From NCBI RefSeq assembly GCF_008000815.1, contig NZ_CP042806.1, positions 1,798,001 through 1,862,000 of the forward strand: DNA of 64,000 nt, given 5' to 3'. Under the pieces are notes generated by a model. It was not told the DNA's origin, did not search any database, and worked only from the letters and a program-made list of their open reading frames with translations. Positions 33,268 through 34,666 of this stretch are shown piece by piece. This stretch comes from Terriglobus albidus. GTDB taxonomy: Bacteria > Acidobacteriota > Terriglobia > Terriglobales > Acidobacteriaceae. The first letter of the stretch is position 1. Each line of letters begins with the position of its first letter. The position numbers were made by a program, and so were the translations under genes.

Positions 33268-33846
33268 TTAACGCGTGCGCAACTCCTCAATCAACCGGGC
33301 GACGGTCTCAGCCGGGGTGAGCGGCTCGGTGTCCACGATGATGTGGGCGGCGCGCTGGTATTGCGGACGACGTGCCTTGAAGCGGGCAGCGGCAGTGTCC
33401 GGATCCTTGAGCACAGGACGGATTGCGGCATCCGGCTGAAGCACGCAGCGATCGAAGAGGATCTCGAACGGAGCATCGAGGAAGACCGTAAGGGTATTGG
33501 GCTTCTGTTCGAGAAGGAGGCGATTGGTGAGCGACTCCAACGCTCCGCCACCGAGGGCGATGACAGCGTTGTGACGGCCAAGAGCTGCCGCCAGGGCGCG
33601 GGTCTCGAGCTGCCGGAAGCCGGGCTCACCGTGTTGGGTGAAGAGCTCGGCGATGGTGGCGGCGTGCGTAGTTTCGATGAGGTGATCGAGATCGCAGAAC
33701 TCCCAGCCAAGCTCCCTGGCCAGGGCCCGGCCAACCGTCGATTTGCCGGCTCCCATATAGCCTGTCAGCACCACGCGTTCGGCGGTGGTGGCAGTCGGTG
33801 ATGGAGTTTGGGGTTGGGGTTTATTTGCGCTTTCGACGGTCACCAT
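33268..33846 (-). CDS. aroK: Shikimate kinase
   Basis: 192 residues from ATG 33846 (GAGGA 7 bp upstream); about 20 extra N-terminal Pro/Thr-rich residues precede the kinase. It phosphorylates shikimate in the common aromatic pathway. Walker A GYMGAGKSTVGR; shikimate-binding DLDHLIE, GFRQLETRAL and ALGGGALES; adenine/lid region FLDAPFEILFDRC and RPVLKD. Transcribed from the right, behind a leader with an aromatic-rich short frame and a terminator, so attenuation control is expected. The AI-2E family permease follows 35 bp downstream. Confidence 0.94.
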   Translation of the reverse strand: MVTVESANKPQPQTPSPTATTAERVVLTGYMGAGKSTVGRALARELGWEFCDLDHLIETTHAATIAELFTQHGEPGFRQLETRALAAALGRHNAVIALGGGALESLTNRLLLEQKPNTLTVFLDAPFEILFDRCVLQPDAAIRPVLKDPDTAAARFKARRPQYQRAAHIIVDTEPLTPAETVARLIEELRTR

Positions 33847-33886
33847 TTCATTGTCCTCTTTTGTGGCTGGATTTGGGTAAAACAAA

Positions 33887-33911
33887 AGCCGCGACCTTGG
33901 TGGTCGCGGCT
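33887..33911 (-). terminator. Intrinsic terminator inside the aroK leader (segment 3:4)
   Basis: Read on the minus strand: AGCCGCGACC-ACCAA-GGTCGCGGCT followed by TTTGTTTT. It lies 40 bp upstream of the aroK start, so full transcription of aroK requires readthrough. Confidence 0.85.
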
Positions 33912-33950
33912 CGGGTCTTGAAACTTGGGCTTTCTGCTGGATTTAGGGTT

Positions 33951-34049
33951 TTATCCCTGGAACGCACGCCCGCGCTTCGCCTGAGCCGCTACTGGCCACC
34001 AGTAGCGGTAGGTAAAGCAAAAGCCGGGCTGGAATGCGCGCATCCGCAT
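33951..34049 (-). CDS. Putative aromatic leader peptide of aroK attenuator
   Basis: 32 codons (30 from the second ATG at 34043). The central run FCFTYRYWW and an earlier Phe give seven Phe/Tyr/Trp codons within 13 positions. The TAC CGC TAC TGG stretch forms one arm (minus strand of 33999-34008) of a 10-bp hairpin with 33986-33995. Segment 33983-33989 can instead pair with 33906-33912, the first arm of the terminator. This is the layout of trp/phe-type ribosome-mediated attenuators. No homologue was searched. Confidence 0.7.
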   Translation of the reverse strand: MRMRAFQPGFCFTYRYWWPVAAQAKRGRAFQG

Positions 34050-34060
34050 GTCAGTTGTAG

Positions 34061-34089
34061 AGACTAGCCTCCAGAACGGGAAGTTGCAA
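34061..34089 (-). promoter_or_regulatory. Candidate promoter for the aroK leader
   Basis: Minus strand: TTGCAA (34084-34089), 17-bp spacer, TAGTCT (34061-34066). A start about 7 bp further would leave only about 5 bases before the leader peptide ATG. Confidence 0.4.
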
Positions 34090-34162: not shown

Positions 34163-34666
34163 ATGATGCGTTTGTTGGGTTTAGCGGTGCTGGTGGCATG
34201 GGCGATACCGGTAATGATTCCCCAGCGGGCAGTTGGGCAGGGAAGCGGTAATTCCCTGACGGAGCGCCAGCGCCTGGTGAAACAGGCGCAGGAAGCGTTC
34301 GACCGGGAAATGGCGCGTGAAAAGGCCGGGGATTGCCGGGGAGTCTCGACGACTCGCGAGGTGCTTGAATGTCTCGAGAAGGAAGGCAATACCAGCGAGG
34401 CCAATTACAAGGCCTTTACCGGCGCACTTCGGAAGATGCTCGCATCGTACGGCGATGATGCTTCTGGATCACAGGAGTTGGTGCAGGAGTTCGACGCGAT
34501 TGAAGGCGCATGGAGAGGGTATAAGAAGCAGATGTGTATGGCTGCTTACGACCTGAATAAGGGCGGGACGATTGCTCCGGTGAATGAAGGAACGTGTCAT
34601 CAGACACTCTTGCGCGGCCATATGCGTGAGCTGCGGGATGTGTACGACCACCTGTGGATACAGTGA
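34163..34666 (+). CDS. Secreted LprI/DUF1311-like protein
   Basis: 167 residues with signal peptide (LLGLAVLVAWAIPVMIPQRAVGQ). The Cys spacing and helical pattern (AGDCRGVSTTREVLECLEKE, then EFDAIEGAWRGYKKQMC and a last Cys in EGTCHQ) resemble the lysozyme-inhibitor LprI N-terminal/DUF1311 family, where two disulfides staple a helical bundle. GAGGTAAG precedes the start. Divergent from the aroK leader. Role as lysozyme inhibitor is only a family-level possibility. Confidence 0.7.
   Translation: MMRLLGLAVLVAWAIPVMIPQRAVGQGSGNSLTERQRLVKQAQEAFDREMAREKAGDCRGVSTTREVLECLEKEGNTSEANYKAFTGALRKMLASYGDDASGSQELVQEFDAIEGAWRGYKKQMCMAAYDLNKGGTIAPVNEGTCHQTLLRGHMRELRDVYDHLWIQ

Follow-up and report, generated by a model that had tools for sequence, protein, structure and literature searches.

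In the genome of Terriglobus albidus, a member of the Acidobacteriaceae (Acidobacteriota), a short open reading frame (ORF) with a run of aromatic codons, followed by what looks like an intrinsic terminator, lies upstream of the shikimate kinase gene aroK, and the locus raises the question of whether transcription of this gene is set by the supply of aromatic amino acids. We analyzed a 64,000-nucleotide stretch of contig NZ_CP042806.1 (positions 1,798,001 to 1,862,000; hereafter the window) together with related genomes. A first-pass annotation made from the sequence alone had proposed a ribosome-mediated attenuator that senses Phe, Tyr and Trp together. From the agreement of conservation, gene context, two-sided changes of base pairs and folding with a stalled ribosome, we consider it very likely that the element is a ribosome-mediated transcription attenuator of aroK that can respond to a shortage of Phe, Tyr or Trp, although there are no RNA or expression data. 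The parts of the element, numbered by window position, are as follows.

34084..34089, minus strand: candidate -35 box (TTGCAA) of the leader promoter (sequence; script promoter scan, 17-nt spacing, 7/12 matches)
34061..34066, minus strand: candidate -10 box (TAGTCT; script scan), ending 11 nt before the leader ATG
33951..34049, minus strand: leader ORF of 32 codons, MRMRAFQPGFCFTYRYWWPVAAQAKRGRAFQG, with its ATG at 34049 and its stop codon at 33953-33951 (sequence)
33999..34016, minus strand: predicted control codons TTT ACC TAC CGC TAC TGG, that is F12 T13 Y14 R15 Y16 W17 (folding, 12-nt cover)
33999..34008, minus strand: segment 1, CCGCTACTGG (sequence; pair counts)
33986..33995, minus strand: segment 2, the arm pairing with segment 1, CCAGTAGCGG (sequence; pair counts)
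33983..33989, minus strand: segment 2 core GCGGCTC, partner of segment 3 (sequence; duplex and alignment counts)
33906..33912, minus strand: segment 3, GAGCCGC, also the first arm of the terminator (sequence; duplex and alignment counts)
33886..33912, minus strand: intrinsic terminator (3:4) with 11 pairs and a T-rich tail (sequence; terminator scan; pair counts)
33855..33858, minus strand: GAGG, a Shine-Dalgarno-like site of aroK (sequence)
33268..33846, minus strand: aroK, shikimate kinase of 192 amino acids (Pfam PF01202, SKI, 9e-42)

The leader frame, the 10-bp hairpin, the 2:3 pairing and the terminator proposed in the first-pass annotation were all confirmed in their places, as was the shikimate kinase downstream. 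By direct reading, segments 1 and 2 pair at 10/10 positions around a TGG loop, and the core (33989-33983) pairs with segment 3 (33912-33906) at 7/7 positions. The terminator, first given as 33887-33911 with a T-rich tail, held and was placed by our scan at 33912-33886. The folding energy of the 171-nt leader is -77.5 kcal/mol (z -4.8), a stability reached by none of 200 shuffled sequences. NCBIfam shikimate kinase models also match AroK to 3e-35, below their own curated cut-offs. A distant shikimate-kinase-like ORF, 30% identical to AroK, is found elsewhere in the genome (G000:C1:3284058-3284489).

The nearest upstream gene (34163-34666, plus strand) encodes a small protein that weakly matches LprI, a lysozyme inhibitor (1.2e-6). 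It is divergent, so no nearby minus-strand gene is placed to read into the leader and the terminator is unlikely to end the transcript of that neighbour. Some relatives (e.g. L007) have, by eye, an apparent separate terminator before the leader promoter, which also speaks against reading it as the terminator of an upstream gene. A transcription start within the 39 nt between terminator and aroK would have counted against attenuation. None was found there by a strict promoter scan requiring at least 9/12 matches, but the same scan does not report the -35/-10 pair of the leader either. No Rfam 15 family (Trp_leader, Phe_leader, T-box and others) matched in the window at the gathering score, and a search of seven element loci at E up to 1 returned only a microRNA family, with one match that scored below the gathering cut-off. 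A T-box, riboswitch or other known RNA family was therefore rejected.

We compared the regions upstream of aroK in relatives, a comparison that would have refuted the proposal had the short frame or the pairings been absent from close relatives. Both are kept. A protein search found aroK in 19/19 same-genus genomes, two of which could not be read upstream since contig ends lie too near (L003, L018), and the leader ORF, hairpin and terminator precede aroK in all 17 readable genomes. The arrangement persists where the kinase is as little as 46-49% identical to T. albidus AroK, and the leader peptides are variable except near F-x-Y-R-Y-W. In L009, L014 and L015, three of the 17, two positions of the hairpin are mismatched and W17 is replaced by C; in L019, both sides of one hairpin pair have changed. 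With only these 17 leaders the pair counts give a mixed picture: the paired share and the covariation score are reached by 0/500 shuffles, but 13/500 reach the number of pairs with two-sided changes and 121/500 the number of further pair types.

The proposal was refined in one respect by these comparisons: the element is one member of a family. We built a covariance model from the 17 same-genus aroK leaders (R1) and a broader model (R2). R1 finds a second strong match in the T. albidus genome (E 4e-20), a sister copy (L263, C1:425000-432500) that heads trpB, trpA, an 87-residue chorismate mutase (CM) and DAHP synthase. In T. albidus' taxonomic family, 58/120 genomes have an R1 match at E 0.1 or better, and 48/396 genomes of the phylum have an R2 match at E 0.001, 34 of these 48 lying within that same family. 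We found that 114 of the 126 places examined are upstream of aromatic genes, namely aroK (42), trpB (31), DAHP synthase (30) and CM or prephenate dehydratase (CM/PDT; 11 by best match). When places are counted by first gene, 13 are led by CM or prephenate dehydratase, two of them with DAHP synthase next (L060, L063). Of the other 12 places, one precedes a PLP enzyme (L147) and 11 precede none of these genes (two contig ends, nine weak matches). The association with aromatic genes is thus shown for the places examined.

Downstream genes were identified by BLAST against representatives whose own identity was checked with Pfam or NCBIfam. The 126 places leave out 22 family matches at E 0.003-0.1 and three phylum matches (G408, G385, G428). 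Dropping nine weak matches left 117, dropping seven repeated leader peptides left 110, and dropping L132, L143 and L146, which lack the segment 2 core, left 107; the leader of L085 was read in the frame of its hairpin. Weak matches in T. albidus' own genome (L065, L067, L068; E 9e-4 to 0.36) were rejected as chance, with no aromatic gene behind them, and L148-L153 (E 3e-4 to 1e-3) were likewise rejected.

Two outlying elements were also observed. In L147 (1201-1364; G498), the leader MTRKLYYCHYWCACTF contains three Cys codons and stands before a cysteine-synthase-like PALP gene; a separate cysteine attenuator is a possibility here. In L146 (201-355; G252, distant family f15), a 16-residue leader, MNTGRQYFYFYYFYLK, with eight F/Y residues is followed by a terminator and then DAHP synthase. 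No segment 2 core was found in L146, and this element could be of independent origin.

Across 100 elements aligned to R2, 91.5% of the 1:2 and 3:4 cells are standard pairs, two-sided changes occur in 13/21 pairs, and none of 500 shuffles reaches any of five measures. When the partner is slid, the paired share falls to 33-48%; in the two innermost pairs of the hairpin, 71% of cells are intact. This alignment was fitted to the structure and the model and leans towards them, and both fitting and relatedness inflate the pair counts. In the 2:3 core, the first five pairs are standard in 96-100 of the 100 aligned elements and the last two in 42 and 51. Since the first five hardly vary, they carry little covariation information, although L141 has its core altered on both sides (CGGGGC with GCCCCG). 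The native 2:3 duplexes average -18.7 kcal/mol against -17.5 when permuted among elements, and beat 200/200 permutations. The T. albidus aroK leader taken alone has a 2:3 duplex no better than shuffles (p 0.26), and p 0.05 is reached by 74/110 leaders; support for this duplex is family-wide and does not come from the T. albidus leader by itself.

These counts bear on the simplest alternative, in which an ordinary terminator lies beside a chance short ORF and regulates nothing. In its favour, GC-rich arms pair easily and chance yields terminator-like sites no less often here: our scan found three such sites in 3 kb where 2.0 were expected, so that the scan alone is little proof. Against it stand the conservation across genera with two-sided pair changes and the repeated placing of the element before aromatic genes, which leave this alternative almost no room.

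If the element is an attenuator, its control codons should sit where a stalled ribosome would free segment 2. We therefore folded the nascent leader, at equilibrium, with a ribosome at each codon, counting a 12-nt cover from the first A-site base; a cover of 12 nt is taken from toeprint distances. The probability of the 2:3 pairing, P(2:3), is 1.00 with F12, T13, Y14, R15, Y16 or W17 in the A site, 0.50 for W18, 0.24 for P19 and 0 with no ribosome. Against a strict window, the pairing is not confined to these six codons, with F6-C11 giving 0.62-0.84. A cover of 11 nt gives the same full window (F12-W17), 13 nt lowers W17 to 0.82, 15 nt moves the full window to C11-Y16 with W17 at 0.50 and W18 at 0.24, and 9 nt moves it to T13-W18. 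By the model, the placement criterion is met for the Phe and Tyr codons at covers of 11-15 nt and for W17 up to 12-13 nt.

The same pattern is found across the family. Averaged over 107 leaders, P(2:3) stays between 0.84 and 0.88 from offset -27 to offset -12, drops to 0.47 at -9 and does not exceed 0.26 at -6 or later; without a ribosome it is 0.32. Aromatic residues make up 377/647 in the control window, 50/106 at -9, 43/1279 after it and 220/943 before the window, their share by offset being 83% at -12, 47% at -9 and 3% at -6. Among shifts of -6 to +6 codons, the placement fit is best at zero (0.394; next 0.375), and at covers of 9 and 15 nt it is best at +1 and -1 codons. The control window originally ran from -26 to -11; its extension to -29 followed inspection of the profile, so that the counts of F in the wider window are not blind. 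Two members fit poorly, L042 with P near 0 at its control codons and L013 with only 0.6-0.8. The concentration of aromatic codons in the window is shown; that they sit where a stall exposes segment 2, and end where the ribosome covers it, is predicted by the model, as is the identity of the effective control codons (F12, Y14, Y16 and W17 at 12-nt cover). W18 is predicted to fit poorly, as a ribosome there would already cover part of segment 2. In the family control windows, Phe is encoded by TTT 100 times and by TTC 35 times (raw counts, without genome codon usage).

The proposal that all three aromatic amino acids are sensed is thus supported, with unequal weight on its parts. Korolev et al. 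give up to 12 nt covered downstream of the stop codon (PMC4833913), a figure that is nearer 15 nt in A-site counting and would weaken Trp sensing. Since W17 drops to 0.50 at a 15-nt cover, Phe and Tyr sensing is safer than Trp sensing, which depends on the cover and is, on the model's predictions, the least certain step of the reading. A second alternative is therefore attenuation that responds to Phe and Tyr but hardly to Trp. It is favoured by those 15-nt values for W17 and W18 and by the AroR leader of Corynebacterium glutamicum, which has Phe and Tyr codons and a reported response to Phe only (PMC11802643). Against it, W stands at the same offset (-12) in 34/39 aroK and 22/27 trpB leaders, and operons that do not serve Trp mostly lack it in their leaders. 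We consider this alternative unlikely.

The amino-acid sets were compared by downstream gene. F, Y and W all occur in the window in 35/39 unique aroK leaders, 22/27 trpB leaders, 10/24 and 3/3 DAHP synthase leaders of two types, and 1/11 CM/PDT leaders, and W alone is present in the window of 26/27 trpB against 1/11 CM/PDT leaders (Fisher 2.5e-7). The CM/PDT leaders L143 and L144 have one W each. Among coreless CM/PDT leaders, L132 has no W and L143 has it at residue 5; L060 and L063, with CM then DAHP synthase, are without W. Because CM and prephenate dehydratase do not serve Trp, W-poor CM/PDT leaders are what attenuation predicts. The test on W is weakened by shared ancestry, with only one to three independent pairs in the tree, and significance is out of reach for a phylogenetically controlled contrast. 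In the trpB-headed regions, trpB, trpA, CM and DAHP synthase lie on one strand in 20/20 examined, with tyrA within about 6.5 kb in 17. That operon also makes the entry enzyme of the pathway, which would explain the Phe and Tyr codons in its leader.

A third alternative is an arrest peptide: the growing chain would itself detect an aromatic amino acid or a pathway intermediate and so arrest the ribosome. TnaC is an arrest peptide of such a kind. The F-T-Y-R-Y-W residues around the control codons are well kept, and an upstream F-Q recurs in aroK leaders (F at -42 in 20/39, Q at -39 in 23/39), both of which favour this explanation. On the other side, the P-V-A part follows from complementarity to the segment 1 codons and residues elsewhere vary. 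CM/PDT leaders hold F, Y, S, H, A or T in the place of W, and DAHP synthase leaders F, W or Y, with the RNA design of the former unchanged. We regard an arrest peptide as very improbable. Selection on the leader peptide as such was not shown by a codon-position test, in which third positions were not clearly more variable than the others and no clear coding signal emerged. In 65/65 members with a standard hairpin, the distance from ATG to hairpin is 32, 35, 38, 41, 44 or 56 nt, which amounts to one frame; since that frame was chosen for its aromatic codons, the result is partly by construction.

How the leader would be translated in an attenuator was considered from its start and its stop. In 74/107 members, against a shuffled mean of 4.9/~96, a promoter-like pair leaves 8-13 nt between the end of its -10 box and the leader ATG. 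A Shine-Dalgarno-like site precedes 8/110 leaders versus 67/107 first downstream ORFs, the starts of which were taken mechanically. As the promoter abuts the start codon, the leader ORF is probably leaderless or nearly so. In T. albidus, the position of the -10 box puts the inferred transcript start about 2-6 nt before the ATG; this start, and translation from it, are inferences.

The stop codon had been thought oddly late, at about 30 nt beyond segment 2. The distance held (the stop begins 29 nt after the core), and the lateness proved common to aroK leaders and less so to trpB leaders: measured from the start of the segment 2 core, the stop lies at a median of 36 nt in aroK leaders (27-45, n=39) and 15 nt in trpB leaders (6-37, n=27). 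A ribosome at a trpB-leader stop would, we infer, mask segment 2, as in trpL, and one at an aroK-leader stop would not. The trpL-type criterion that the terminating ribosome masks segment 2 is thus not met by aroK leaders, and trpB leaders come nearer to it. We infer from the late stop that termination after full translation in aroK leaders probably relies on 1:2 re-forming behind the ribosome.

A fourth alternative is that the terminator mainly serves to release a trans-acting small RNA and peptide, like rnTrpL and peTrpL of Sinorhizobium meliloti. In its favour, the locus would yield a small leaderless mRNA, about 170 nt long and bounded by a promoter and terminator of its own, which would resemble rnTrpL (PMC7298713). 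By itself, however, this does not explain the placement of the control codons, the 2:3 pairing or the gene association. Such an RNA could be an extra function; as the main one we hold it to be very unlikely.

The range of the aroK form was examined at 80 aroK loci from named genomes, of which the R2 search covered 78, and at 22 loci of other genera of the family. Full-length R2 matches were found at seven named aroK loci, all acidobacterial: T. albidus DSM 26559 (L154), Edaphobacter sp. (L156), Granulicella sp. (L157, L159), L155, L158 and L160. The other acidobacterial aroK loci among the 78 gave no R2 match, including one Terriglobus assembly with only 169 nt upstream (L161), and R2 matched 0/22 aroK regions of the other family genera (the most similar ones). 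A scan for aromatic short ORFs in 23 other-genus aroK regions found none in 22 and a 13-residue ORF in one; the same scan also misses two of the seven named R2-positive loci (L155, L160). The aroK element occurs in a few other genera as well (L041, L044, L100, L103). Among the loci examined, this control of aroK does not extend beyond the Terriglobus/Granulicella/Edaphobacter group and a few of its neighbours.

Under attenuation, which remains our preferred reading, RNA polymerase would start just upstream of the leader ATG, within a few nucleotides, and the (nearly) leaderless ORF would be entered by a ribosome. When Phe-, Tyr- or Trp-tRNA is scarce, the ribosome would halt with its A site at F12, Y14, Y16 or W17, covering the part of segment 1 that would otherwise hold the GCGG of segment 2 and leaving GCGGCTC free to pair with the emerging GAGCCGC. 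The terminator would thereby be blocked and aroK transcribed. When all three amino acids are plentiful, the ribosome would pass, 1:2 would re-form, 3:4 would pair and transcription would stop before aroK. Sister elements may follow the same logic before trpB-trpA-CM-DAHP synthase in T. albidus and before DAHP synthase, CM or prephenate dehydratase in relatives. Stalling and the response in the cell are inferred.

The element has the sequence features expected of an attenuator and shares them with E. coli trpL and pheL: a leader ORF with codons for the end products, mutually exclusive 1:2/2:3/3:4 pairings and a terminator before the structural gene. The layout of trpL and pheL is well known, as is their attenuator role (PMC11802643). 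The aroK element differs from them in the predicted sensing of three amino acids together, in its nearly leaderless ORF, in its late stop (~36 nt) and in its target, a kinase of the common pathway. C. glutamicum aroR, the leader of aroF, is likewise an attenuator before a common-pathway aromatic gene, with Phe-Tyr-Phe residues, but it belongs to another phylum and gene, is reported to answer to Phe and not Tyr, and has no mention of Trp (PMC11802643, a review). The uORFC-13-1 motif of Acholeplasma similarly places a uORF and terminator before DAHP synthase (aroF), but it includes a ribosome-binding site, carries one Phe codon or more, and comprises 24 sequences (PMC8632094). S. meliloti trpL (rnTrpL) has a leader ORF whose mRNA begins at its ATG, so the leaderless feature was already known singly; it differs in carrying Trp codons and in preceding trpE(G) (PMC7298713). 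Enterobacterial ilvL and thrL likewise sense several amino acids of a branched pathway with one leader, and differ in their codons (branched-chain or Thr/Ile) and genes.

The first-pass annotation knew of no description of such a leader in acidobacteria. We found no aromatic attenuator described in Acidobacteria in the open-access literature searched (titles and starts of abstracts, with subscription papers outside the search). As far as this limited literature goes, the machinery is known, and what appears to be new is that codons for three amino acids share one window, that the ORF is leaderless and that homologous copies of the module precede several aromatic operons.

A bolder reading is that one homologous, leaderless, three-amino-acid module stands at both aroK and trpB-trpA-CM-DAHP synthase in the Terriglobus/Granulicella group, so that the entry, the middle and both branches of the pathway would be co-governed by tRNA charging, while elsewhere in the family the module sits on DAHP synthase or CM/PDT with codons tuned to the products of the operon. 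We lean towards this reading, by a modest margin. In a main lineage of soil bacteria, a single sequence family seems to govern a large part of the aromatic pathway, and it offers a natural series of one RNA design with differing codon sets upstream of differing genes, making the rule of control-codon position directly testable. The element also indicates aroK, which is not usually counted as a control point, as one in these bacteria.
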